Shown in pieces: positions 11,815-63,686 of a DNA stretch of 64,000 bases. The notes beneath the pieces were generated by a model, which saw only the letters and a list, made by a program, of their open reading frames with translations, had not been told where the DNA came from and searched no databases. The position numbers were made by a program, and so were the translations under genes. Source of the stretch: Paramecium tetraurelia (lineage: Eukaryota; Ciliophora; Oligohymenophorea; Peniculida; Parameciidae); NCBI RefSeq assembly GCF_000165425.1, contig NW_001798974.1, positions 124,001 to 188,000 on the forward strand, given 5' to 3'. Numbering within the stretch: the stretch's first letter is position 1; every line of letters starts with the position of its first letter.

Positions 11815-13903
11815 ATGATTTAAGCTAATTTGGATTTGGAATCATTTTATTAACAACTACCTGAGAATGATGTGTTAAAGACAATCGCATACGAAGGAGA
11901 TTTAAAAATTACGAACACAAGTAACAAACAATTTAAATATCCAGTAATGATTGTTTTTAAATTAGACTGTTTCCAATCTTTGCTTACATCCAAAAACATG
12001 TTATGAACTTGAATTTATACTTGGTGAAATAGCAGAGAAAAGTTTTTGGAAATGTGAAGAATGCAGAAAATCCTTTGTAAAAGAGGATTTGTGTAAAGAC
12101 TTTAGATATAAAGTTTAAAATGAATTTAATGAATTTGTTACCAATATCATGATTATAGAAGGAAAATTATTTAATAAATCTTCTAGAAAGGCTAGATATT
12201 TAAATCATTTTACTAATCCATAAGTTAAGATTCACATGAGAGGATTATATCAAAGGTATGTAGCCACAGAAGGCTCGATAAATTAAATAATAATTAATGA
12301 GTTAAAAAAAAGTTAAAAGATAAAAACAGGAACAAATTAGCGAATATAATATTGGGCATTTTGCTTATAAGATAAAGTTAAAATTACTATTCCAGTCAGA
12401 ATTATAGGATGTAATCATCCTGAATGTTATGAATTAACAAGTCTTTTATAAGTACAATCTCAAAAGCAAGAATAATTTTATGTTTGTTCATATCCAGGTT
12501 GTGATAACCCAAGAAAGAAAATTGATATTTCTACTATTGAAAACTTATTCTCATCAATCACAATTGATGAAGATTTATTGAAAATTATAAAGCAAAGTAG
12601 TCTGAGTTCTATGAAATTTGTCTTTAACTATTAAACATAAAAATTTGAAGAGGATGTTTATAGAGAACAGGGACAGATCATTGATCCAGTTATTTAGAAG
12701 TATTTTTTAAAAAATAGCAAAGAAATTAAGGTAGCATTTGCAGAATTTTAAAAATAAGTGTTATCCTTAGTAGCACAAGTATGTTAAAATGATCTTTTTA
12801 AAGATTAACCTAACTTAGAAAAATTATTAGCTCAACACAAGTTTCGCAATTTAGAAATTAATATGAAAGATAAACAAACAGATATGATAATTGAGTAGCC
12901 TGTTAGATGCAAAAATTGCACCAATTTTTCAACTTGTTTGGATTTGAAAAGTTATGCTTGTGAATTCATTAAAAGGAAATTAATCAAATAAACTGATTTA
13001 TTCAAATGTCCTATTTGTTAAACTCCTTTTCAAGGCAATATGGTTTAATCTATGTTATAGAATTACATCTACTTGGATTAAAATTTATTATTCAGAATGT
13101 TTAAAGATTTGTCATACGTAAATACAACAAAATTTTAATATTTGGGTCGACAATATATGATATAAGAATTCTAAGAGAGATAAGTATTAACAAAGACGGA
13201 GTATATTAATGCATTAACACCAAAAAATCCAAGTTAAAAAGTAGAATTCAAATCAATTTTCTGTTCCTTTAATAAAAATTAAAAATTAGATATTCCATTA
13301 GTTTTATTTAACTGTCCAATTTCAACAGTGATTGATTTTGATACCTTCTATCTTCAATTAGAAAAATGTAACTTTGACCTCTCTTCAGGGTTGATTTTAT
13401 GTAAATGCTAAACCTGTAATACTACTCCGATTAAAAGTCTATCAGGCTCAATATTTTATCACGAGGCCTTTGATTATGCACTTAAAAAGTACTATTCATC
13501 TAACAGCAAATCAATGTCGTTTTCTTATGATTTTTAAAAAGATACTTTAACTAATAGTGGAGCTTTAGCAGATACTGCAGCATTAAAAAATGCTTAAGTT
13601 CCTAAGAAAATGGGGTTCTTGGATATGCTGAATGAAGAGGAATACCAGAAGATATTTGGTGAAAAAAAATTGGAAGGAAAAACTTTTTAGATCCTAAGTA
13701 TCACATAAACAGATGTCTTTGATGGAATAGCTATAACATATAATAAGGATGGGATTGATAGTAATATAGTAGAGAGAAAGGAATAAATGAACGCCAATTT
13801 AAAGAATGATCAAACCTTAAAATAATACAATTTTGTAATTAAGGAAATGAAACTAGAACTTAATAATAATCCTATTGTTCAAAATTTAGATCTTAAAGGA
13901 TGA
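11815..13903 (+). CDS. Protein with four SP-RING (MIZ) zinc modules
   Basis: One 22-nt intron leaves 689 codons (688 aa). Four modules resemble the SP-RING of PIAS/Siz SUMO ligases. Module 1, near residue 45, has LCLHPKTCYELEFIL then FWKCEECRKSF. Module 2, near 190, has GCNHPECYELTSLL then VCSYPGC. Module 3, near 355, has RCKNCTNFSTCLDLKSY then FKCPICQTPFQ. Module 4, near 490, has FNCPISTVIDFDTF then CKCQTC. Known PIAS proteins have a single SP-RING. The protein is probably nuclear and acts in SUMO transfer, by family only. A relative lies tail-to-tail at 14802-16945. No SAP domain or DNA-binding motif is seen. Confidence 0.8.
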
Positions 13904-14801
13904 TTAACAAACTTAAAATTAAAATTTATTTAGTCATTTTAATATATATATGATTCTCACTATATAAATTATGAAGATTGTACTTCATGGTTGATAATAA
14001 CAGCAGTTCTTTAACTCTGTATTCTTAATTTATTCTTAGTATTAATTACTTTTAATTTTTATAACTTATTATTTCTGTTTATACATTAATCACTTTTCCC
14101 ATCTTTTTTTTACATTTATTTATATCCCAAATAGGTTCCCAAAATCATCTGCAGATGATTTTACTATATATGTTACTGTACTTTGAAGCTTTGTTAAATT
14201 ATATTCTTATTTTGATCTACAATATAAAATTGTAGTATTCTAAAAAACAAATAATAAAAAATTATTGAAACTGATTACAAATTATATTTTCAAATAAATT
14301 CATAGTCTTAGATAATTTAGAATTAATAAAATATGTAAAGAATTTGTACATTTTTCAAAGTTAATTATTTTGAAGAATTTCTTTGTAATAAATAATTCTT
14401 ACATTTTTTACTTAATATCTTCCCCAAAAAATAAGTAACCATTGATGATAATTAATTGAAAATTATTCAACGTCATTACTCAAATTGTGCTTTGAATAAT
14501 TAGTATCGTTAATTAATTTTATAATTTTTATCGTTTATTAGGGTTTTAGGATCATTGATCTTTGATTGATAATGACACTCTAAATTATTGGCATTCATTA
14601 ATTAATTATTACATTTTCTTGAATTTTTATAAAAGATTATGATTATTCCAAAAATTCTGGAAAAATAAACAACAAATCTTTCATCCGGCATAATAACAAA
14701 GAAAGATTTTGGAACTATAGAATTTAAATAAATTTCTCTAGAAGATCGCTTTATTTTTCAACATTATAAATAGTATAATATTGCATTAAAAATAATATCA
14801 T
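13904..14801. other. Long A+T-rich spacer between convergent SP-RING genes
   Basis: About 900 bp separates the two stops, long for convergent genes in this window. No convincing ORF, tRNA or repeat was found except a perfect 22-bp palindrome (separate entry). T-rich runs are frequent. The stretch could hold a lost gene or an unrecognised RNA. Confidence 0.4.
14141..14162. repeat. Perfect 22-bp palindrome
   Basis: The sequence is an 11-bp arm, AAAATCATCTG, followed directly by its exact reverse complement. It sits between the convergent stops. It could form a hairpin or bind a dimeric protein, and its function is unknown. Confidence 0.7.
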
Positions 14802-16945
14802 TCATTTAAATCTCTACTAATAAAGTTACAAAGGTATTAATTAACCATTTTCAAAAATGAATTATTAAGTCTATTAGATATCCGGTTAAGTATGCTATTA
14901 TGTGCTTTATGCCATATGCATAAAATGAGTCTAGTTATATTATGGTTGCATCATTACTTACGGTTGATATTACTATTATTATAATTACTATCTTAATTAA
15001 AATATTTCTGATTGTTAATCCATTAGTTATTGCGATTATTATTATAATTATTATTATTGTTGTTATTATTAATATTATTATTATTATAATTATTATAATT
15101 ATTATAATTATTATTATTATTATTATTATCTTTATTATTACTATTCTTGATCTTAGCGTTATTTATTATCATTATGCCTTTACAATATTCTTTGAATATT
15201 TGGAATTTCGTTAGTTTAAGTATTTTCGAAGTAATTATTAGTTAGTTAATTCCTGAAATGTTCAAATGTACTTGTTTCTGAGCTAAGAGATGATATAAGA
15301 TAAAAGACAGGATCCCAGTAAAAGTCTGTAATTAATAGTTGTGGTTTGGCCTTGCAAAATTGGCAATCGCATTTAGGAAATTCACTAAAACTAAAATTAT
15401 TTTTCTCCAAAATTTTTTAAGGCCTTTTAATTCAACTGCGCGTTTTGCTTCGCAATATATCAATATTAGTGGTAGCTTAAGTTTTTTGTTTGATAATGTA
15501 CAAAATTATTTAGCATATGGATATATTCTAGTCTACTAATAGAGTGTTTTTATCTGTTTAAAATCGATGATTTGATGGCTTTAAAAAAATTTTGTAAATT
15601 TATCTTCACTTTTATTATATTCAAATTATTAACGATTGTTGGCTTTTTATAATGCATTATATAGATAGCCATCAAAATAAATAATTTATTCCAATGTTTT
15701 AAAATTATCATGTTTGTAATTACAAGCTGGACAAATAAAATAGTTCTTTTTTTCATGTTTATCTTGTATATAATAGCTTAATAAAAAGTCCTCAATGTCT
15801 TTCACATTTTATAATTCGCAATAATTGCATCTACTGGGAAATTAAATATATTCTAAATTTACTTTATATTTCGAAAAATGTAGTTTATTTTATAACTAAC
15901 TACTTAACTCTTTATTAATAATTTTCTTTAATTAACTTAAGATTACATAATCAAGGCCATTTTCTTTTGAGAAACAACTTCTTAGGTCAATATTTTTTAG
16001 AAACTCCTAAATTTTTATCTTTTAATATTCAAATCCACTTTTCTAAAAATCCCATATTAAATTTAATGAGAATGGGTAATTTTTTGAAATTGCACGACCA
16101 AAATCATAAGGAAATATAAGTTTCTGCTTTAATTAATTTAAATCTAATGGAATTAAAGTTTCGCAGCCTTAATAGTAACATCTTACAAATGGTCTTTAAA
16201 ATTATTCAGGTAACTTTTTTTCATCATCAATCAATTTTAGTATGTTCGTATATTCATAACAATCCAAATGCTTACATTCGCTTAATTAAACTGGTATGAT
16301 AATTTTTTAATAATTTATTAAACACTAAAATGGAAATTCCAGAATTCTATTAGTGTGTATGGGGTTGTTTTAATTAAGCTCTCTCGATTTTTATTCAATT
16401 AAATTAAGTAAGTTCTCTTTTAATGCATCTGCTTTGGATCTAGAGTTCTAAACAACTGCTGTAAATAATTATAAGTATTGATTTTTTTTAAGCAATTCTC
16501 TAGCTATTGGCTAAATTTCTTATGAAAAAGAGTGGAAGCATAATTATCCCACAATTGAGCAACTAAAAGATTTCTCACTCATGTTTTTGATTAAGAAAGT
16601 ATAATACTCTTCCTTTTTGATGTTTTTCTTGGTGCCCTTCTTATGGCATTTTTTGCAAGTAATTTCACCTTTGTTTAAGAAAATGTCATATAAATCAAAA
16701 ATCTCATGATTACAATCTTCTATACATATCTTAAATATAATTAAACATATTACTGGCACTTTGATTTATCTAATTTTTTTCTCACCAGATGTTAAACAAA
16801 TATCCAATTCATCACTTTTATATTTAATTACTTTTCCTCCAGGTTACAATTAAGCCAACAGTTCGGAGTACTCAGGTGATTTTCTGATCTCCTTTTCTTT
16901 CCTTGAGTAGTTTATTTAGCTCACTATGTTTGTATCCGACATCAT
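14802..16945 (-). CDS. Second protein with four SP-RING modules, one frame break
   Basis: The frame opens at ATG ATG (16945) and shows four zinc modules in the same order as the gene at 11815: CIEDCNHEIFDLYDIFLN with CKKC, ECKHLDCYEYTNIL with CYYQGC, RCNYCELQNVKDIEDFL with FICPAC, and IYCEAKRAVELKGLKKFW with KCDCQFC. Between 15398 and 15419 the coding frame changes by one base in an A/T homopolymer area, just before the last CDCQFC pair. Downstream the correct frame is rich in glutamine (about residues 590-680) and ends at TGA 14802-14804, for about 714 aa. Unshifted, the frame gives poly-Asn and ends at about 14945. The cause may be a sequencing indel or real decay. Confidence 0.72.
15034..15143. 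repeat. TAA/ATT trinucleotide microsatellite
   Basis: This run of ATT/ATA triplets on the plus strand reads TAA, TTA and CAA on the minus strand. In the minus gene it encodes a Gln-rich tract, because TAA is glutamine. In a neighbouring frame it would be Asn-rich. Confidence 0.8.
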
Positions 16946-17102: not shown

Positions 17103-18537
17103 ATGAAAAAAATTATATTCGCCTTAGGTTTTATATTGGCAATCAATATAATATTTTGTCAAATTTTGAATGCTTTTCCATCTTTCTCAATAACACTGGT
17201 AGATTGGAAAATCATAGGAAGGTAAAATAAATTAGTATATTTAGTACAATTAATGATTAATATGCTAATTATTTTTCAGCATTGGCATTCAGTGTGTGGT
17301 TGCTTTTAAATTATTATTTAGAAGGCTTTCGTTTCAATTCAATTTTAATAATTTTTGCCTTGTTTTTTTTCTATTTAGATAAAGTACCTAAACAATTTTA
17401 AATTAGGCGCTTTAATTATCAAGTATATTATCCAATATCTCAGCTATTTTTGCAATTTTATATTTATGGTCCTTGATCAAATGGAAGTATTACTCATTGC
17501 CACCTCCAAAAGGCAATTTTAGAACTTGTTATAAGGAAATACATATGAAAGATAAATATTAGACAAGTGTTTCAGTTTATTATCCTTGTCATGATTAAAA
17601 GTAGAAAGATGTTGACATTAAATGGCTACCAAATTTAAAATATTTCAAATAAATATATGAAAGAATTTAATTACAGTTGAAATGGGTTCCTCATTAATTG
17701 ATATTTGATTTTGGACTAAACTTCTTAAAGTAAATTTTTAGTTCAAATAATAGTTATATCACATTTAAGGCTAGTGTAGAGTAACCTTTACTCGATTCCA
17801 AACTTGATGTCATTATTTTTAGTCATGGGTTTACTTAACATAGAAATGCTTATACTTTTTTGTGCTAAGAATTAGCAAGCGAAGGCTACATTGTATTTTC
17901 ACCCCAACATACAGAAATGGTTTATCCTTGGGATTAAAAATAAACTAAGATCTTGCATTCTGGAAATAAGGCTGAAGTGATGGAGAAATATTAAAGTTTA
18001 AGAGCAACTCATTTAGATTGGAGATGTGATTAGGTAAAGTTTTTAATTTAGTAATTGTAAAATGGATAATTATAAGATACTTTCAAGAATTTAAAGCCTT
18101 TAAGTATTAGTTTGATCGGGCATTCTTTTGGAGGAGCTACTGTTCTCAAAATTGCTTAAGAAATTAAATTAGATAATGTGATTTCATATGATCCATGGTT
18201 ATTTCCATTCAATTAAGAAGAATTTAAAAAATAACTTAAAGGAAGAATATTAATCTTGAGCAAAGATATAAATAGAATTAAATAAGAAGTGTTTTAACCA
18301 AAGCTACTAGAGGATTTTCTAGAAAATAGAAAAGATGTTCAACACCATCGTATAAAAGGATTAGATCATGCCTATCCAAATGATTTAACTTATTTGATGG
18401 CTACTGAATTGACTATATTTGGAGAAATTAGAAGCATTAAAAATATTTAGTAAGTTAACGAACTTTTGATTACATTAACGAAAAAATATTTGAAGAATTA
18501 TCAATTCATTTAAAAAGAAACCAATCAATTTTATTGA
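17103..18537 (+). CDS. Membrane PAF-acetylhydrolase-like lipase
   Basis: Introns of 23, 23 and 24 nt leave 455 codons (454 aa). The N-terminal third has about three to four hydrophobic helices (first: KKIIFALGFILAINIIF). The rest is an alpha/beta hydrolase of the PAF-acetylhydrolase type. It has the oxyanion motif IIFSHGFTQHRNAY, the nucleophile elbow LIGHSFGGATVL (Ser), the acid region ISYDPWLFPF (Asp) and the catalytic His region IKGLDHAYPNDL. The triad order Ser-Asp-His and the spacing match the plasma PAF-AH family, which cleaves short or oxidised sn-2 acyl chains of phospholipids. The extra membrane anchor suggests action at the endomembrane or cell surface. Substrate is inferred from the family. 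Confidence 0.88.
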
Positions 18538-18584: not shown

Positions 18585-21500
18585 TCATTCTTCCTATGTC
18601 ATTATGAGGTTGTATGGTATTAAAGAGAATAATAAATTTGCCATTGCTTCCTCAGGTTGCATTTTACTTTGAGTCTGCATGAAATACCAAGCTCCTAATG
18701 TAATTTCATTGCATTCATGGAAAATATTGTGTCTAGCAAAGTCACTATATATATGTTGTTCAAAAAGTTCATCAGCTCTAATTAATTCTATTATTTAAGC
18801 TCCTATATCAGAATAATGATTCAGAGTAAAAATCTAGCTTAATTAATAACTTTACTTTTAGGATATTTTTGTTATTAATTTTTTAGAGGTGACAGTATAT
18901 ACTAATTCTTATTTGCTATTCTTGTAGTATAGCATTTACAGAGAGCAGGTTTTGAGTTATTTTTTTGTTTTACAAAAATTCAGAATATACCATTTGAATT
19001 TCCTACAATAAAATTGTTAATTACTTATTATAAATTCTCTAAACCTTCTTCATTGAAAGGTTGCTCGATTACACCAAATTCAACTGCTGGATTTTATTAC
19101 TACCCCTAATTTAGTATATCTAAAAATAGTTATTTAACATCTTCCTCCTGTTCTTCAAAGAGAGTAAAAAATTCATTGTTTTAATGTAAAGCCCAAACTA
19201 ATCTAGCTATAGTGTCTTCATCAAAATTTATAACTTCTTAATCGTCCTATTCATATAGATGAGCAAATAATGTGAGTAATGTTTTTAAATATTGATTATC
19301 TTTCTTATTAAGACTTTTTAGAGTTTTTAATGCTTTAGGTTAGAGAACAATTTAATCTATTTAGTATTCTTCACAGTCAAGAATCTATTAAAACATACCT
19401 AAAAATTGTTCAAATTGTTCACTCATTGATTCCTCAGTTGGTTCCTCTTCGAAATAGATTCTTAAAAGATTTTAAGTGGGATCTTTTTCAATTAAAAAAA
19501 AGTCAAAAGGAAACATTTCTGTTTTATCAAAAAGATAAAAAAGTCTTTAATTTTCACTAAAGGTTTATTTTTATGTTCTATTTTAAAAGTTTTACATGGT
19601 TATTGCTTAAAACTGTTCCAACTCTTATTTTGGGTCTTCATCAGCTAACATTTTGTCAAAAATCAATAAAATTATCTCAGTCTCATCAAAATCAAAGAAG
19701 TATAATTCATCTTAAAGTATGAATGATTAAAACAGCTAAATTAAATATTCAAATGAATTAAATTCGTAAATGAAATCCTTAACTTAAAATTCGGATCCAT
19801 ATCGGAAACTTTTAGCGAATTTATTAATCAAAGGTAATGTTTTATCTGTTATTATTTTGTTAATTTGAATCTCAGCATCCTCTCCTTCAGATAATTCAGG
19901 CTACTTCATCTAATTTATTTTCTTATCTTATTCATTTTATTTTTATTGAACCTAGTTTTTGTTGTTGTTGTTTGATGGCACATAACTCGTCATAAAATTA
20001 AGACCATCCTCATCCTCATCATCAATGTCGTCTGAATTAATATCAAACTCATCAAGGTGCTGAATAAATAAACATTTTTACCATCTACTTCTTACTTTGA
20101 TCTTATTACTATTATTTTGACTTTTAATCTATCAGATGATCAGGTTTTTTGATTTCTTATTCAGGTTTTTTAAGAGGTTCTTTAGTAGGCTCTGGTTATT
20201 TTGGCTATTCTTTTGAAGGTAAAGGTTGTTTAGGAGATTCTGGCTGCTTTGGTTATTCCTTAGGTTGTTCAGGCTACTTTGGAGGCTCTTGTTGTTTTGG
20301 TTATTCTTTAGGTGGCTCTGGTTATTTTGGTTATTCTTTAGGTGGCTCTGGTTATTTTGGTTATTCTTTAGGTGGCTCTGGCTATTTTGGCTATTCTTTA
20401 GGTGGCTCTGGTTATTTTGGTTATTCTTTAGGTGGCTCTGGCTATTTTGGTTATTCTTTAGGTGGCTCTGGTTATTTTGGCTATTCTTTAGGTGGCTCTG
20501 GTTATTTTGGCTGTTCTTTAGGTGGCTCTGGCTATTTTGGCTATTCTTTAGGTGGCTCTGGCTATTTTGGCTATTCTTTAGGTGGCTCTGGTTATTTTGG
20601 CTGTTCTTTAGGTGGCTCTGGCTATTTTGGCTATTCTTTAGGTGGCTCTGGCTATTTTGGCTATTCTTTAGGTGGCTCTGGTTATTTTGGCTGTTCTTTA
20701 AGAGGTTCTGGCTATTTTGGCTATTCTTTAGGTGGCTCTGGCTATTTTGGCTATTCTTTAGGTGGCTCTGGTTATTTTGGCTGTTCTTTAAGAGGTTCTG
20801 GCTGCTTTGGTTATTCCTTAGGTGGTTCAGGCTATTTAGGAGGTTCTGGTTATTTTGGCTATTCCTTAAGTTGTTCAGGCTATTTAGGAGGTTCTGGTTA
20901 TTTTGGCTATTCCATAAGGGATTCAGGTTATTTAGGAGGCTCTGCCTATTTTGGCTATTCTTTATGTGTTTCAGGTTATTTAGGTGGCTCTGGTTATTTT
21001 GGCTAGTCTTTAGGTGGTTCAGGTTATTTAGGAGGTTCTGGTTATTTTGGTTATTCTTTTGGTGCCTCAGGATATTTAGGAGGCTCTGGCTATTTTGGTT
21101 ATACCTTAGAAGGTTCAGGTTATTTAGGTGGCTCTGGTTATTTTGGATATTCTTTAGGTGGTTCAGGCTATTTCGGAGGTTAAGGCTATTTTGGCTACTC
21201 CTTAGGTGGTTCTGGTTATTTTGGTTATTCCTTTGGCGGTTCTGGGTTCTTAGGAGGACCTGGTTACTTTGGTTATTCTTTAAGAGGCTCTGGCTATTTT
21301 GGTGGCTCTGGTTGTTTTGGCTATTATTTAGGTAGTTCTGGTTATTTAGGAGGTTCTGGTTATTTCGGTTATTCTTTAGGAAGTTCTGGTTTCTTTGGGG
21401 GTTCCGGCTACTTTGGTTAAACTTTAGGAGGCTCTGGCTATTTTGGTGGCTCTTGTTTTTTAGGAGGATCAGGCAATTTTGGTTATTGTTTAGGAGTTTC

Positions 21501-23900
21501 AGGTTTCTTAGGAGGTTCTGGTTGTTTTGATTATTCCTTGAGTGATTCAGGCTTTTTCTGTGGTTCTGGTTATTTTGGTTGTTCTTTAGGAGGTTCGGTC
21601 TTTTTAGGTGGTTCAGGCTATTTTGGCTATTCTTTTGGATGATCAGGTTTTTTAGGTGGATCAGCTTATTTTGGTTATTCTGGCTTTTTAGGAGGTTCTA
21701 ATTATTTTAATGGTTCTTTTGGAGGCTCTGGTTTTTTTGGTGGATCTGGTTATTTCTGTTAAGGGGTTGGAAGTTCAGTTTTTTTAGGCTGCTCTGGTTA
21801 TTTTGTTTATTTCGGTGGCTCTGGTTTTTTTTATGCTTCTTATTAATTAGTATTTTAAGGTCTTTTTGGTGGTTCTTGAGAATAGTTTTATTATTTTTAT
21901 ATTTCTGATATTTTTGCTGGTTCAGTTTATTTCTATCTTTCCTATGATTATAATTATTATTTTTAGCGATCTTATGAAAATTCTTACTTTTATGTACTAT
22001 TTTAGTTTTATATATTTTTATTTCTATAATCATTGTTTTAAATTGATTGATTTTATTAATATTATACATCTAATTTGATCGATTAGTTTTGGTTAAAGAC
22101 TTTAGAGTTATCGAAATCTTTTTCATTTGATAAAGTAGATTTATTTTGGGAATTTTAATTAATTCTTTGATATTCAGGATATTTTATTTTTCCTTAAAAT
22201 GAATCATTATAATACTCTGTTTTAGGTAGTGCATAAACATCTCTATCCAATTTTTATTTTTAATCTTAAGTTTTTTCTTACCAGTTAAGCATATTATCTA
22301 GTTTAGCCTAAGGATTATTCAATCCATTATATTAAATGTTAGAAAAGGGTCGACTAAGTGTAGAATTTTGTAGGCTTCTTTCTAAATTAGAAGATTTCTA
22401 AAATGAGGAGCCCAGTGAATTTTTTCCTAATTAGGATTTTTAAGTGTGTGAGAATGAAGAATTAAATTAGTTTGACTATTATTAACTTTTCTCCAATAAA
22501 TCAATCAATTCTTCATAAAGAGTATCAACAAATGTTTTGATTTAATTAGATGGATTTTTTCCAGGGATTGCTTTAGAGTAAAACTGTCTTGCTTTAACAA
22601 GAGCATCAGTAAGTTTACCTTACACATCTTTTTTGGTTTAATCTAAATGATTGTTTAAGTCTTTTTATAAGGATATTTAATCAGATTATAAATTTTAGAC
22701 TTTATTGAAAAATACACTCAATCTTTGAAGTTGAAATATTTGCTATGAATTGGGAACCTTTTAATTTATATTTAGATTAGCCTCGTTTATTCGATTTTCG
22801 AGAATCAAATAATAATTTTCATCTAATTTGATTAATTCAAATTATTTTTGCACATTTACTAATTTAGTTTAAAGTTCATCTTTTTTGAGTTGATGATATG
22901 ATTTTTTATTAGGGAGCATCTAAAAATATTCTGGAGCCAATTCATTTAGATTATGAGTAATTTATTAATGAAAGTCATTATAGATGATTCTTCGATCTCT
23001 TTGACAAACAATTTGGCAAATGTAGCATATATCATCTATTGTTATTTAATTGTCATCGCCATCGTTGAGTATTTAATTAAATCTAAATAACTTTATAGAT
23101 ATACTTGCTAATGATATCCTCTTTATTAAATATGTTTAAGAAGTTAGTATTATTTTTTAGTATAGCAGATTATATTAATTGAATTGAAATGATGAACTAA
23201 GATTCCATTAACTCATCAATTGATTAAATATCCTAGAGCTAATTATTACAGGTTGTTTCGAGTAATTATTCTAAATTGAATTTTGTGATATTAATCAAAA
23301 AATTCCATCCTTGATCAGACCTAAATAATTCATATACTCTCAAAATTTAATCAACTTTTCTCAATATTTCTTTATCTATTTCTTCATTGTTCAATTTTTA
23401 TTAAAAATGATTTAAAAGATCTGTGGGTATTTAGTTTGCTTTCATTTTTATATAATTACGTAGTTCTGAAACATTGTAGTCTTCAGGGATCGTAAATTAT
23501 TGCTAATTTTTGTGTTAAAATAATGTGTAATCCAAGTGATCAAAAAATTTATTGAGTCTTCGTTCTAGAACGCAGAAGAACTTTCTTATAAACTCATCTA
23601 CTCGGAATCCTAGTAATAGTATTATTTTTAACCATTAATCACATTATTCCCAAAGGTTGTCAATAATTATTAGATAGAGCTATCGAATGATCTCACAGCT
23701 TTGTTTACAAGTTATAGGTTATCTTTTAAATAATTTGTTAGTTCTTAATGAGACTAATATGAGATTGGTATTTGTTAATTTGTGAATCTTGTTACAGGTT
23801 CAGCACTTTGGATACGATTGTCATATCTTAAACTGTTATTGATGGGTTTCATATTTGGTTAACTTGGTTTTTGATAAATGTACTCGTTATCTGATAGCAT
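18585..23900 (-). CDS. 1734-residue protein with long Lys-Glu-Gln-Pro repeat
   Basis: Five introns (23, 22, 22, 22 and 22 nt) leave exactly 1735 codons. Residues 1 to about 440 are globular and helical (GFRVDEFIRKFFCVLERRLN, then an EF-hand-like ILNDGDDNQITIDDI with no clear full pair). Residues of about 440-700 are Gln- and Asn-rich. Then comes a repeat of about 570 residues built on KEQPKQPEPP. The C-terminal 470 residues are again folded and acidic (FIYEFNSFEYLIQLFQ, ELYFFDFDETEIILLIFDK, EQIDQ-like helices) and end in LFSLIPYNLIMTQEE. I do not recognise either end. The shape, two folded ends joined by a stiff Pro-rich spacer, suggests a linker or scaffold in the cytoskeleton. That is inference. 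Confidence 0.85.
20150..21860. repeat. 30-bp tandem repeat array encoding KEQPKQPEPP
   Basis: On the plus strand the unit reads GGTGGCTCTGGTTATTTTGG followed by about 10 more bases. From about 20311 to 20820 roughly 17 units are nearly identical and in perfect 30-bp register. Both flanks carry diverged and compound units (with inserted 15-18 bp pieces). Differences in the core are mostly silent on the coding minus strand (TAA against TAG for Gln, CCA against CCT). The plus strand is also open over most of it (GGSGYFGYSL), but this is only a shadow. Confidence 0.92.
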
Positions 23901-48200: not shown

Positions 48201-50259
48201 ATTTTGAATTAATAACTCTTAGTTTTCCTCAAATAACCTAATATTTAAATAAATTAGACCTTTATTAAATAAAGTATATTCTGCATCTGTATTATTGTGT
48301 AAATTATTCAACTTATCATCTGAAATAGATGTATTACAAGTAATCTTATGGGCATCTAAATAGTTATCAAATATCTCTCCTTAACAATAAGTATAAAGGG
48401 ATTGAATTCGCTGACTTGGAAAATATTTGTAAAGCTTTAATAGTTTGCTTTCCAATATTTCCACTTTCAAACACAATTCTTTTGAAACCTTAAACAATTA
48501 AGACAACTTAATATGCTTCACTTATTGTAATTAGATGAAAAATTATAATTTAGAATTCACTAAATTCAAAACTTGATCTTTCAGACTTTGATTTCTCTTC
48601 TCACTTTTAAGGAACATTTCAATGGCATTTTATAATCCAAAAGAATTACTATTTATTTCTCTGTATTGAAATGATTACTTCAATCTATCTCTTACTTTTT
48701 CCCTTAATATTATAACCCTAACATTCTAATAAAATGTCAATGTGTGATTTCCAGTCGTTGCTAACATCTTGTTAGTTTTATTTATCTAGTGATTTCCTGC
48801 CTCTTATACTTCCTAAGATTTTGATGATCTACTAAATGAGGATTTATTTCCAGGATGTAGAGTATTGAGCGATTTCATTTAGTCGCTCTAATTGTCTTTT
48901 GCAAAGGATCGACTATGTTTATTAAAATTAGTATTAAATAACAAAACATTAATTTGTTTAAGTGACAAATTGTTCAATCCAATTTTAAATAAAATAGCTG
49001 CATAATGAATGTAATGATTGGCGTTTCTTGATTTACTATTTGTTCTTTAAAGTTCTTTCAAGTACTTCTTGATAAGAGTTTTATAATAGAAATTCATCAA
49101 TTCTTTAGGCATAAATTCTTAATTTACACTCTACAATGGCAATTAGGCAATTGGCTCAAGATTCCTTTTCTATTGATATAATTATATAATTTTAGCATAG
49201 ATGATAATCTTCTGTGGAAATGATGAAAACTCTTCATTAAAAAACTTAGAAAGCACATATTTGCAATGAGCAATTTTAAAACTAAGTTGCATTTGTTGAG
49301 ATCTTAAAATCATATGAGTGGTGAACTTTTACTAATAAATAATTAAGCAAAGGAACCAAAATATACAGCAAAACATTGATATATAAAGAGATATTCACTT
49401 AAAGATTGGTTAATATCAGGATAGATTGAATAAATTAGTACGAAGCAAATGTAATTGATATGAATATTATGTTGTTTAAACAAGTTATTAGGCTAAACAT
49501 ATTAATTAGTATCATTAAGGATATTAGTAATAAGAGTATTGCTTAAATGGATTCATTAAATTTAGGTATATGGTAATAAACTATAATTTGAAAAAGGGTA
49601 GTAATCCAAATAACGAAATCAATAAAGCTCAGTTTTAATGTTAAAAAACTGTTTAAATCAAAATCTATTGATTCTCTGCAAAGGAGGAAGGTCAAAAAAT
49701 TTAATGAACATAACAATATCAAGGTGATTATTGCAAATATTATGTTTATGTAATTACTCTCGATATTGAGACTCTAATCAAAATTAAATGCCAAGGACTT
49801 GAAACATAAGGAACAAAATGGAATCTATAAGTAGATTGGTTGTAGTTAAAAAACCATCGAACTTAAATTTATATAAGGTAAGAGTTTGCTCCTTTTTCTT
49901 TTAGAATCATCACTACGCTTCTATTCAACTAACAGAATCAGAGGAATCACATTGAACATTATGGTTAAGGTCAAAGGTATCAAGTATTCAAACTCAGGAG
50001 TATTTGTAGAAATAATTAAATCAGGCCGAGCAATCACTTCTAAATACCAAAATTAATTAATTGGTGTTTGTATTTACTCATTAAATTGTGGATTTTAGTT
50101 GTTGTGAAAATTTTAGAAGAGCATCGGTTGGAGTAATCCTAAAAAATAAAAGCCACTTAATACAAATTTTTTCACTTTGATGCTATGATAGAGGTTAAGG
50201 ATTGAATTTATAAACTATTCTTTGACTTCAAATTTAGATTTTTCTTTTTAGGTGAACAT
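45214..50259 (-). CDS. 1673-residue multi-pass membrane protein, one frame break
   Basis: A 23-nt intron near the 3' end and one extra T in a T6 run (about 49226-49233) give exactly 1674 codons. Residues of about 20-360 hold several membrane helices (LIPLTLTIMFNVIPLILLV, YINIIFAIITLILLCSLNF, ILLLISLMILINMFSLITCL). A signature CAFQVFNEEFSSFPQKIIIY follows. A long soluble centre leads to three more helices (LLIILLICQFIIGSIHFIII, WSIIWIIFIIITILLTL, LGTSLIIGIWMIFFGLSII). A final pair ends at TIYLIFAVLSILVLIFGFKR. The build resembles the big ciliate TmcB-like/PAS multi-pass family, a tentative label. The single frame break sits in a homopolymer. Confidence 0.7.
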
Positions 50260-58554: not shown

Positions 58555-61435
58555 AATTTAAAAAAGAATCCTTTAAGAGCAACTAAATTTTAATAGTTAC
58601 CCTGCTCTTCTATGTTTCCATTGTCAAAACATAAATAACATCTGAATCCTATATTTAGATTCAAAACAAAATACCTAGATTGTAGATATGCGATGGGCTA
58701 TAGCAATGGTAGTTTTACTTTGCATTAATTTATTTATGCTATCTTAAACTAAATGTTCGCTGGTAGTATCTAAAGTACTCTTTGCTTCATCTAATAATAA
58801 GATGTTATGATTTCTTAGTATTGCCCTGGCTAAGATTATTCTTTATTTTTGACCTCCTGAGATTTAAGTACCTTTGGGACCAACCTATCTTTAAAATCCT
58901 TATCCTCTTTGCTTATCCGTTCCTTTTTAAGTTATTTATGTCTTTTCAAATTGATTAGAAATTATAAAATCATATGCTTTGGCTAACTTGGATGCATTTT
59001 CTATTTATTCAGATGGTAAATTGAGTTAAATATTTTCAGTAATGGTTCCTTTAAAAACACCGGTTCTTAAGAGACAATTCAAGATTATCTCCTCAGATAC
59101 CGAATATCATATTAAGTGATATCGACACCATTAATAGTAATATATCCTTGATCTGGGTGATAAAATTACATTAGAGGGGACTTACCACATCCAGAGGGTC
59201 CAACAAATGCCACATTTTAAATTTGTTTAATAAATAAATTTAAAAGATCTTATCATCTCTGCCTTAATATTGAAATGTTATATTCTCAAATTGAATATCT
59301 CCTTAAATAGGAATGATTAACTATAGCTTTTTCAATCTTTCTTCTCTTTAAAATTCATTCTCACTATCACTTAATCTTGCAAATCCTTCTTTAGCATATC
59401 ACATAAATCTTTTCTAGGATTATCATATGTCATGTGAGATTAATAATCTGCAAAGGAGGGATTAGATTCGACCAAAACAGTAATCATATCTCCCAATAAC
59501 AATGAAAATATAGGAAATATACATTCATTAGCCTATTTTAGTTTATTTTCCTTTAAGGACATATGACTATCCTAATCTTACTATGTTTCTATGCCTTTTC
59601 CTTGCGCAACTTTGCCTGAAACCTTCTTAATTAAAGTAGGAACCTCTAATTTCTTAAACTTCTCATTTCTTCTTTACTATTATTGCTTTATTTATTAGCC
59701 TGCTAGATTCATTTTTGATCTGAATGGATCTTTAAGATACTTCTTTATTTGGATGTACTTCTTATGCATTCCCTTCGAGTTCCTCTTTCATCTATGTCTA
59801 TATCAAATTTTTGGCTAATTCCTCAAATTTACCAATTTGATTTATTAATTCTTCAATTGTCCCTGATTCTACTACTTAACCGTTATCAATAACATAAATT
59901 AGATCTGTATTTTGAATAGTACTAATTATATGTGCAATCACTATAGTAGTTATTCCTTTAGATATTTGATTCACGGTTTATTAAATTATTCTTTCATTCG
60001 TTCTATCCAAAGCACTTGTCGCTTTATCTAGTAATAGAATTTATGGTTTTTTAAAATAGCTCTGGCAATTGTATATTTATCCTCTATTTAATTAACTTCC
60101 TCCAATGCCAAAGTAGGTATTTAACCCTTATTTCATTTTTGATCCAAAATCCCAAGCATTTGCCTTCTTCAATGCATCTATCATCTCCTCCTCAGTGGCA
60201 TCAATCTTTCCCTATAATAAATTTTCTTTAATACTAGTCGCAAATAATTCTGGTTCTTGACCTACCAAACCTATCCTACTTGTCAATTCTAAAACATTTA
60301 AACCTTTAACCTTAATTCCGTCTTCCCCTTAATGACAGTCATAGAACCTTTCAATAAGTTGCATGACAGTTGATTTACTACAACCACTTTCTCCAACTAT
60401 AATACCTTAAAATACTCTGAAACTATAATGCTACTGTAAGGATGCTATTGAATATATTAATAATGAATATTTCAATTTACAATGCTTCCTTAAGTTTCAT
60501 CTCCTGAATATATCACTCATACCTGATGGAATAATTAAGTTTAACTTTTTAAAACCTGTTGATCAGGGCGATTTGGATAACTGAAATGGACATTTTTCAG
60601 CAAGATAGTCCCATTAAAATCTCCATGTTTCTTAGAATTCTAAGGATTCAAAATCTTCGGTATTCTATTAAGAATGGCAAAAATCTTAACTGCAGCCTGT
60701 CTTCCTTTTGCAAAGTGCTAGACACATGGCCCGGCCTGTTCTATTTAAAACCCTCCTGTAACCACAGAAAAAAATATAATCATTACATTCCCAACAGTAT
60801 ATGGAGCTCCCATGTTGTGATTGATAGTCTAGTGTATATCATATCTTCATTACTTATTAAGATATTAGTTTGGCAGAATCAAAGTGAGTAAGCCCTCATG
60901 AATGATGCCCATAGAAAACCGAAGGCTATACTGACACCAAATTAATATATAATAGTTGTTGCAGTTGCTTGTAGAAGGTTTTTTTTATTACTTTTCAATC
61001 TCAAAATCCTCTCCATCAAGCATTTTGATAATAGTTTTAATTGCATTTATTTGCTTATTCAGCTAATGCTCATGCTTCCGAATAGATTTTTTAGGTTGCA
61101 TTCGCTGAAGTTTGAACAATAACGGCAAAGATTGCTGTTGCAATAGAAACACCTGAAAGACCTAGCAGTAACTACTAGAGCTAATTATAATTGAACTATT
61201 ACAGATGTTTACTCCTGCCTCTGAAAATGAGTCTGTTATATCTCCTAAAATGGTAGAATAAGCTTGGAAATGCAGCCACATTGAGGAAGACTATGAGACC
61301 ACCAATTATCATTAGTAGTTTGTCTTTTTTAGAGGCAAACCTTAAAAGTTAAAAATAAGGGACCTTTTGATCTTGGTTATTGGTAGGGACTTAATTTTTT
61401 AAAATCTAATATTCAGTAGATTCTCTATTTTGCAT
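58555..61435 (-). pseudogene. Decayed full-length ABCB (MDR-type) transporter
   Basis: The order of parts is complete. The N-terminus is at about 61430 with VPYFQLFRFASKKDKLLMII. The first transmembrane block is scrambled over several frames. NBD1 (about 59850-60390) has GCSKSTVMQLIERFYDCHQG, VGQEPELFATSIKENLL and ILLLDKATSALDRTNERI. A degraded linker and second transmembrane block follow. NBD2 (about 58600-59200) has FVGPSGCGKSPLMQFYHPDQ, GTQISGGQKQRIILARAI, ILLLDEAKSTLDTTSEH and IAIAHRIST. Many frame changes and TGA codons and a shortened length (2.9 kb against about 3.9 kb) show that it is dead. It once exported drugs or lipids. Confidence 0.85.
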
Positions 61436-61701
61436 TTAAATAAATTTATTTGTTGATTAGAAATTCTTGTGTTCTATAGCTTTTATTTAATTAGAAATTC
61501 TAATGATAAAATTATTCATGTTAATTATTTTCTCCCTTTAAGATAGTTCTAAATAATGCAATTGACATTTCCAAACTTCAAAATACAAATATATAATTTT
61601 TTGAAACTACTTTTACTACTTTTGGATCAAACTCTTCTGAATAATTTAGATTTTTTAATTATTATAGTGAAAAATCAAATTTATAATATATTTAATATTA
61701 A

Positions 61702-63686
61702 ATGTAATAACGACCAATAATTAATAGGGACCTACAAGAAAAAAAAGATGTAATTAGATATCTTACAATTAGAAAGCAGCAAAATCTTTACACGACTATA
61801 AAAAGAGTGTAGAACTTAATTATTAAGAGTATGTCTCTTAAACATCTGAATAATAATTGAACGATCTTGAAAGTATTTCAAGACCTTCAGTAAAGAGCAT
61901 GCCTGTCAAGACAAGAGATTTGCTGAACAAATACAAGGCACAACTTGAAATAATCCCAAAATTTTAATTGGTCTCTAAACCAAATCCTCAATTACTCAAG
62001 AAATATTTGGAACCTGAAGAACATCTATAAAGTGTTTCTTCCCAACAGTCAAAACCCCCAAAGAATCCTTTTTAAGACAGTCAAAGAACTAAGCAAGATG
62101 AATAGCATATGTCTTTCAGCAGATAAAAGGAAGTTGAATTACTTGATAATCAAATTCAAGAAAATATTATTTAAACTGATTAGGAGGGACAGAAGAATCC
62201 CTTTGAAAGTTCAAGTGTAATGCATTATACGTAAACATAAATGCTGGACCCTTATGCAAAGACAGTTTCAGAAAGAAATCAAGCTAGTCACTATACAAGT
62301 TAAGAGAGTAGCAACATTTAAAATTTAAGTTAAACTTAAGAAAAATCACTAGATTCTGAATAGTTCTATGAGACAATTGAGGAGTAAGGACAATTCTAAC
62401 AATCAGGCAGAGTCAGTACAGGGACTCAATTATAAAAATTGGATTAGAAATCATCCAGAATTTAAAATAGTATAAAAGAAGAAATATAAGATGAATCTAG
62501 TAGTATGACTCATTCCTCTCATCAAGAGGAGAAAAATCATGTAAATTAAAGTCCAATTTACGAAAGTTTTGATTAGGATTCATAATTGGTCGAGAAAGCA
62601 TAGAGATGGAATTAGTATCAAAGCATTCCATAGAATACAGCAGAGTTTAATCCTAATGTGTAATCAACAACTGCGGAAGTCAAATATGAATAAAACAATT
62701 CATAATAAATAAAACAAGATATTTCTAATAATAACATCAGTTATGGCCAGTCATTTGATTAGGCATAGCAGTAATCTAGTTATTTAAATTAATAAATTAA
62801 TTCCAAACTTATAGATAAGGATTCAACAATAGATGGAATTATAATAAATAATCGTATAATATCTAAGAAGCTTTCATAAGAATTAGTAATTGATATGTAA
62901 AAATTTGAGGAAAATAGTCACTTATTGAATAGCATCAATAGAACCTAATTATTGTTTATTACTGAGAAATATTTTGATCTTATGATTCTATAAAACAATA
63001 AGAATTTATTGTAAGATTTTCGATTATTAAAGAAGTTATAATATCACATATTTAAGAAAGATCGTGTTATTTTAAAAAAGTGTATGAAGTAATTTCAGGT
63101 AAATAGGGATAGATAATTAGAGAAATATGAAAAGGATAGGAAATCTAGATAATTTCTCTTCTCAAAATAGAAACTACTATAAGAATATGTATTTTAAGCA
63201 ATTAGATAAAATAAAATTGCATAGTAATAGTTTTTATAGAATGTGATTCGATTGATGAATAACCATAAATAGAAGGTTTTGCTGATAAGATGGAAGACTT
63301 AAGTATACAAATAAAAAATGAAAAGGCAAATGGATCTTTAGTATAAACAGTTTTTATTCAATGGCTGGCTAAATGTAGTTAAAAGAGAGAAAAAGGCGAA
63401 AGATATCAAAAGTTTAACAAAATATTATTTTTCAACAATTCAAAAATATTACTAAACTTGGAAATGTTTCACTTACTAATAGTAAAGACTCAAATCTAAG
63501 TTTCTGAATGCTTAGAGGAATATAAATTTGATGAAGAAGAAGTTTATAATGTCACAATGGATCAATTTTATTTAGGAAGTGAAAAGAGAGAAGGAATTTG
63601 AAGCCTATGTGAAACAGGCCAATGAATACGTTCCTGTTAAGGTAAGCCTAAAACCCTAAAATATAAAAATCTATAATATCAAATGA
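61702..63686 (+). CDS. Sfi1-like centrin-binding protein
   Basis: A 23-nt intron after the first 16 codons leaves 654 codons (653 aa). The first 400 residues are Gln/Ser-rich and probably disordered. From about residue 420 there are repeated Trp-centred helices: LIRWKTQVYKQKMKR, FLFNGWLNVVKREKKAK, QKYYQTWKCFTYQQQR and IMSQWINFIQEVKREK. These fit the Sfi1 repeat, which binds one centrin each. Paramecium uses many Sfi1 proteins in its contractile infraciliary lattice. Five to eight repeats can be guessed by eye. A cortical, calcium-contractile role is likely from the family. Confidence 0.78.

Follow-up and report, generated by a model that had tools for sequence, protein, structure and literature searches.

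Tandem SP-RING-derived zinc modules in a Paramecium gene family with a proposed multivalent role in the SUMO pathway

A stretch of 64,000 nucleotides from Paramecium tetraurelia (contig NW_001798974.1, positions 124,001 to 188,000; hereafter the window) was analysed to characterise two convergent genes, one on each strand, that belong to a family of multi-module zinc proteins. By profile comparison, a tandem SP-RING-derived anatomy can be shown for the second, third and fourth module (M2–M4) and less firmly for the first (M1). We consider it somewhat probable (roughly 55%) that the genes represent a Paramecium-type family of multivalent SUMO ligase (E3)-like proteins, in which M2 would be the likeliest ring to bind the conjugating enzyme (E2) and the other modules would be mainly structural. 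The original prediction had placed four MIZ/SP-RING modules, in the same order and spacing, in each of the two proteins. Four modules were recovered in the plus-strand protein; in the minus-strand protein M2, M3 and half of M4 were detected, with M1 recognised by motif and intron position. The order agreed as far as modules were detected, and the spacing was similar, not identical.

Positions and scores of the modules are given in Table 1. Class profiles for scoring the window proteins were rebuilt without the window rows, from underlying alignments made with those rows included, and 500 shuffles of each protein served as background. High class-profile scores demonstrate a shared family and not, on their own, an SP-RING fold. 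Shuffle maxima of the plus-strand protein were 6.5, 7.7, 8.8 and 11.0 bits for the M1, M2, M3 and M4 profiles, respectively. Within this protein the M2 profile also detected M3 at 17.7, M4 at 9.1 and M1 at 2.8 bits; the M3 profile gave 23.4 bits for M2, 6.6 for M1 and 1.1 for M4; the M4 profile gave 17.4 for M3, 9.9 for M2 and 1.7 for M1; and the M1 profile gave 6.4 for M3 and 2.3 for M2. From these scores M2, M3 and M4 are linked to one another, and M1 is linked mainly by the Pfam profile zf-MIZ (PF02891).

Segment by segment, zf-MIZ matched M1, M2 and M3 of the plus-strand protein and M2 of the minus-strand protein; M1 and M3 of the minus-strand protein had no match at expectation values (E) up to 0.1, in a segment search that took in M1 to M3 of this protein. 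Each window segment alone scored below the curated cut-off of 33.5 bits. On the whole proteins, the profile reached 43.5 bits for the plus-strand protein (three stretches, over the cut-off) and 32.6 bits for the minus-strand protein (just under it). More than one SP-RING-like segment was therefore matched in a single protein, and the idea of repeated modules of SP-RING ancestry held. M4 of the plus-strand protein is tied to SP-RING through its paralogues, because M4 of the B-type genes is zf-MIZ-like and aligns with M4 of the A-type.

Table 1. Features of the convergent gene pair, in window positions. Bits are scores with class profiles rebuilt without the window rows.
Feature	Position	Strand	Description
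Plus-strand gene	11815-13903	+	ATG at 11815, TGA end at 13903, one 22-nt intron, code 6, 688 residues
Exon 1, plus-strand gene	11815..11943	+	43 codons; N-terminus and strand part of M1; code-6 frame; paralogues with same layout
Intron, plus-strand gene	11944..11965	+	22 nt, GTA..TAG, inside M1
Exon 2, plus-strand gene	11966..13903	+	Terminates in TGA
M1, plus-strand gene	11887..12178	+	CxH..CxxC, spans intron; zf-MIZ E 1.3e-4; 62.6 bits
M2, plus-strand gene	12338..12655	+	C..CxH..Cx4C, then helix-hairpin stretch; zf-MIZ E 1.2e-6; 115.5 bits
M3, plus-strand gene	12845..13171	+	PVRCxxC..CPxC, no zinc His; zf-MIZ E 1.5e-3; 91.2 bits
M4, plus-strand gene	13235..13549	+	C..C..CxCxxC, no zinc His; no Pfam match; 94.8 bits
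SIM-like motif, plus-strand gene	13619..13642	+	LDMLNEEE after last module; pattern match
Minus-strand gene	14802..16945	-	Start 16945 or 16942; frame changes once, near 15401; Q-rich tail (second frame) to 14802
Probable intron in M1, minus-strand gene	16730..16753	-	24 nt, GTA..AAG; place as in paralogues
M1, minus-strand gene	16487..16729	-	CxH..CxxC; motif and intron position only; 3.5 bits; no zf-MIZ
M2, minus-strand gene	16022..16348	-	zf-MIZ E 4.1e-7, zf-Nse E 3.3e-3; 50.9 bits
M3, minus-strand gene	15587..15865	-	RCxxC..CPxC; 37.7 bits; no zf-MIZ at E up to 0.1
M4, minus-strand gene	15243..15529	-	Split by frame change at about 15401; first half 17.9 bits; CDCQFC in other frame

The family was counted with a zf-MIZ search of the 69-Mb genome (231 contigs), whose counts are lower bounds. 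zf-MIZ was found in at least 29 places, 17 of them over the cut-off; the remaining 12 all lie within multi-module loci. Module profiles were run over the zf-MIZ loci and ten genomic stretches, giving about 12 multi-module loci, of which two lie in the window, two on C174 and three on C51; the rest are C113, C40, C138, C82 and C156 (our labels). M1 is weak in C138 and C82 (17–21 bits, by the M3 profile) and was recognised by eye only in C156; one C51 locus is interrupted by stretches of N and by broken frames. At the 17 strong zf-MIZ places no second module over 10 bits was found within 1.5 kb; a single ring is not firm there, since the profiles recover the known ring in only 11 of the 17 (three loci unlisted, three listed with no score above 8 bits on the strand concerned). 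Two strong places, C51 near 141121 and C174 near 402250, lie 10–30 kb from multi-module clusters, possibly a clue to how the family arose. The frame L048 4923-5501, adjoining the C174 four-module gene, resembles window 49234-50259 (minus strand) by eye, possibly because of a shared neighbourhood or a large family.

Two loci are longer than the window genes. C51a reads as one spliced frame of 1134 residues with the order M1-M2-M3-M1-M2-M3-M4, each of its M1 modules being interrupted at the equivalent position by a 22-nt intron; C174b can be read in the same seven-module order over 981 residues, with introns of 21 and 22 nt and an unreadable start. In both loci a short GT..AG stretch lies between the two units. 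An open junction between units is weak evidence alone, TGA being the sole stop. That C51a and C174b both keep the junction open, although their first units share 48%, makes fusion to seven-module proteins likelier.

Modules were cut from an alignment of 10 units and then aligned by class (M1, 9 rows; M2, 12; M3, 12; M4, 10). The minus-strand gene was left out of M1 and M4, C51b out of M2 and M3, C51c out of all four classes (N stretches), two units without M4 out of M4, and the B-type genes out of M1; several M1 rows start with a few residues translated from unspliced intron. At E up to 10, zf-MIZ matched 7 of 9 M1 rows, 12 of 12 M2 rows, 10 of 12 M3 rows and 3 of 10 M4 rows, with best E per class of 2e-4, 9.3e-8, 8.1e-6 and 2e-9, respectively. 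The matching M4 rows are the three B-type genes (4e-8, 2e-9 and 6.3e-6). zf-Nse (PF11789) was found in 3 of 12 M2 rows at the same threshold.

The zinc ligands differ by class. M1 has the set CxH..CxxC, with a CxC variant in C113 and C40. M2 has C..CxH..Cx4C, in which C9, I18, P19, C25, H27, Y31, C50 and C55 are invariant in all 12 rows; the Cx4C zinc loop is present in M2 of the plus-strand protein, of the minus-strand protein and of the other 10 rows. M3 has P-x-RCxxC..CPxC, invariant in 12 of 12 rows and without His. M4 of the A-type has C..C..CxCxxC in 6 of 7 rows and CxCx3C in C113, with no His in the seven rows, and M4 of the B-type has C-x-H..CPxC in two of three and C-x2-H..CPxC in the third. 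The M1-M2-M3-M4 set is found in B-type paralogues as well, where M4 retains a zf-MIZ-like site with His. The MIZ kind proposed for all modules applies to M1, M2 and the B-type M4; M3 and the A-type M4 belong to it by descent only, their canonical His being gone. After the ring, M2, M3 and M4 contain a conserved acidic-hydrophobic helix, with F-x-Y in many rows. In profile-profile comparison with M2, values were 90.1% for M3, 96.4% for M4 (96 columns), 30.7% for M1 and 47.4% for the A-type M4 alone.

Profiles were compared with the sequences of the Protein Data Bank (PDB). The M2 profile matched PIAS2 (5.2e-5), PIAS3 (0.0034), Siz1 (0.0056), NSE2 (0.0073) and Siz2 (0.025). The M4 profile with the three B-type rows matched Siz1 (6.7e-4) in an alignment that extends across the post-ring stretch, and PIAS2 was fifth for the M3 profile (0.0076). 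Structure prediction was one of the checks proposed with the original prediction; the M2 model (from five window modules) had a mean predicted local distance difference test (pLDDT) of 65.4, with secondary-structure elements running E E H E E H H E E. Its first seven matches among 350,542 PDB chains were PIAS2, Siz2, PIAS3, PIAS3, Siz2, Siz1 and the E2-SUMO-Siz1 complex (E 0.038–0.14, probability 0.63–0.87, template modelling score about 0.35, over 96–106 columns). There were 63 fold matches at E up to 10, none reaching 0.001. We regard these predicted-fold matches as modest support for SP-RING plus SP-CTD; an SP-CTD-like stretch after M2–M4, as in Siz/PIAS, is suggested.

The reading frames follow genetic code 6 with TGA as the only stop, and G+C is about 25% in the window; together with introns of 21–24 nt, these features are typical of Paramecium. 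In the A-type units inspected, short GT..AG stretches of 21–24 nt occur at the place in M1 where the plus-strand gene has its intron. The 24-nt stretch 16753-16730 of the minus-strand gene is probably spliced, judged by its place and ends; its splicing is uncertain because it is free of stops and divisible by 3 in length. The C40 intron likewise ends in AAG. In the minus-strand protein, M2, M3 and the first half of M4 scored above all 500 shuffles (maxima 10.6, 10.8 and 8.3 bits), and M1 did not (maximum 8.1 bits).

Around the frame break of the minus-strand gene there are five GT..AG stretches of 15–60 nt, two of them of the right length (26 and 32 nt). Neither fits well as an intron: with the 26-nt stretch the new frame reaches TGA before the next cysteines, and the 32-nt stretch (GTT..GAG) has ends unlike those of the family introns and would excise residues that align with paralogues. 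The break may reflect a fault in the assembly, a genuine lesion or an intron of unusual type. The minus-strand gene could be a decaying pseudogene, with the plus-strand gene the sole working member of the pair; this is a real possibility that we nonetheless lean against, and it is compatible with the alternatives discussed below. The frame change within M4 and a branch length of 2.4 substitutions per site point to decay. The Cys/His motifs are nevertheless retained in M1–M3 and on both sides of the break, despite 25% identity to the neighbour, and a one-base assembly error in an A/T run, or the atypical 32-nt intron, would give an identical picture.

A local inverted duplication had been proposed for the origin of the pair, and a recent one was not supported. 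Over M2 and M3, the plus-strand gene is 25% identical to the minus-strand gene, 25–27% to the three B-type genes and 34–52% to eight other units (C174a, C174b1, C174b2, C51a1, C51a2, C51b, C113 and C40). The minus-strand gene is 19–28% identical to all members, so that the neighbours are no closer to each other than to other members, and the tree disagrees with a recent duplication as well. Tree supports around the plus-strand gene are low (34–54), so that its placement is tentative. An old inverted duplication followed by fast change of the minus-strand gene could have taken place; near-identical units lie in opposite orientation on C51 (by eye), so inverted duplication does happen within the family.

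Elsewhere in the window, a plus-strand frame at 17296-18537 resembles platelet-activating-factor acetylhydrolase (by eye). A minus-strand frame of 1055 residues at 20052-23219 contains a long run of KQPEPPKEQP-like repeats, and G+C is raised to 0.37, with strong strand skews, at 20001-22000. ABC transporter-like pieces (by eye) at 59663-61936 are spread across several frames, as would be seen in a broken gene or one interrupted by introns.

Several results weigh against a family of multivalent SUMO E3-like proteins built from SP-RING modules. M1 is weakly tied to M2 in profile-profile comparison, and the A-type M4 alone reached just 47% there. In the plus-strand protein, M1 exceeded the shuffle maximum with none of the other class profiles, the M4 profile scored M2 below its own shuffle maximum (9.9 against 11.0 bits), and zf-MIZ had no match on the M4 segment. 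Against PDB sequences, the A-type M4 profile (without the B-type rows) found no SP-RING in the set, the M1 and M3 profiles matched C2H2 fingers best and were not used as support, and no SP-RING was among the best 60 of 115 PDB chains for the M1 profile. The M2 model is of low confidence (best fold E 0.038, root-mean-square deviation about 8), and the full-length model (pLDDT 31.6) was useless and was not used. A genome-wide zf-Nse search found 15 places, none in the 12 multi-module loci. PINIT gave no match in the genome profile search, in which the controls gave no match either, and no PINIT appeared when the window proteins were compared with Pfam at a limit of E 1.

The proteins may instead descend from SUMO ligases but have lost any action on an E2, so that the four modules would all serve as structural zinc units in a scaffold or in a protein that binds substrate. 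We think this rather unlikely. The lost zinc His of M3 and the A-type M4 fits it, as do the CEEC, in place of CPxC, in M1 of the plus-strand protein, the low identity between A-type and B-type rows (22–31% over M2 and M3) and the very long branch of the minus-strand gene; yet a module of purely structural use would not need to keep the eight residues that M2 retains in every row. It is also conceivable, at low probability, that M1, M3 and M4 represent a different type of zinc finger, whose likeness to SP-RING is a by-product of CxxC spacing, as the C2H2 chains at the head of the M1 and M3 searches and the silence of zf-MIZ and the PDB search on the A-type M4 would suggest. This is at odds with the zf-MIZ matches of the B-type M4, which aligns with the A-type M4, with those of most M1 and M3 rows, and with the detection of M3 and M4 of the plus-strand protein by the M2 profile above the maximum of 500 shuffles. 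That the modules work with a ubiquitin E2, not Ubc9, is the least probable alternative: SP-RING and RING have a common fold, and a passage in PMC8064691 describes SP-RING as resembling RING and U-box, but the only ligases matched by the M2 and M4 profiles at E under 0.1 are SUMO ligases, as are the first seven fold matches of M2, and ubiquitin RING ligases come up no better than E 0.39 (M3 profile) and E 4.2 (fold).

Under the preferred interpretation as multivalent SUMO E3-like proteins, the tandem SP-RING-derived chains would act as scaffolds in the SUMO pathway. M2, the best kept ring, with its Nse2-like Cx4C loop, would be the likeliest docking site for Ubc9~SUMO, and M1 a possible second one. 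M3 and M4, which have lost the zinc His and kept four cysteines, would probably be structural or bind SUMO or substrate. Four active E2 sites per protein seem unlikely, because M3 and M4 of the type of both genes lack the zinc His. Contact with SUMO has been described for the SP-CTD of yeast Siz1 (in a passage of PMC8064691). The SUMO-interacting motif (SIM)-like sequence that follows the last module might, as in yeast Nse2, hold a second SUMO on the back side of the E2. Its pattern (hydrophobic, D, two hydrophobics, acids), composed after the tails had been inspected, is present downstream of M4 in 5 of 7 family tails, of which two are nearly the same, and is missing from the tails of C40 and C51c; across the window frames at least 220 residues long (20,921 residues in total) it has one match, that of the plus-strand gene itself.

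A broader proposal, which we put forward tentatively and think unlikely as a whole, is that ciliates possess a class of multivalent SUMO ligases whose chains each comprise four to seven SP-RING/SP-CTD units. One or two rings would act on the charged E2 and the remainder would keep SUMO, E2 or substrate in place, which would allow poly-SUMO to be assembled on a single scaffold, perhaps in genome rearrangement. If true, a ring repeated four to seven times would test SUMO E3 function by multivalence. The family members are candidates for the SUMO step required in Paramecium DNA elimination, which needs UBA2 and SUMO according to knock-down work cited in a passage of PMC10830130; SUMO genes peak early in P. 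tetraurelia autogamy, as stated in part of PMC3091696. A Rad60-SLD search gave 42 matches, probably SUMO-like genes mixed with ubiquitin-like runs, and was not used as a SUMO copy count. Annotation may overlook the repeats, because each single window module scores under the Pfam cut-off. A search of the literature, with the annotation databases (Paramecium, UniProt, InterPro) outside it, found no report on tandem SP-RINGs or on such ciliate proteins among the titles and abstract openings listed.

To our knowledge, SP-RING SUMO ligases, PIAS/Siz included, carry one ring. Against this background the number of repeats stands out, as does the absence of the zinc His from two of the module classes. 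The family shares with PIAS/Siz the ring pattern of M1 and M2, the IPVR strand, a SIM-like motif after the last module and possibly the helix-hairpin stretch after the ring. It differs in its four to seven modules, in the lack of the zinc His in two of the four classes, and in that PINIT was not found in it, in a search whose controls were silent. With Nse2/Mms21 the family has in common the Cx4C between the last two zinc ligands of M2; in yeast Nse2, as described in a passage of PMC8636563, there are two additional residues between zinc ligands C221 and C226, H202 is a ligand, and a SIM lies behind the ring, comparable to the SIM-like motif of the family. Nse2 has one ring and binds Smc5, whereas the family has tandem rings on which zf-MIZ outscores zf-Nse. 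Ema2 of Tetrahymena, compared here by its description in part of PMC10830130, where three further SP-RING proteins are named alongside it, differs in having one SP-RING described, with His in place of the first zinc Cys. It resembles the Paramecium proteins as a ciliate SP-RING protein whose zinc set is atypical, and according to the same account it binds Ubc9 in vitro, and SUMO conjugates in Tetrahymena conjugation are about half without it.

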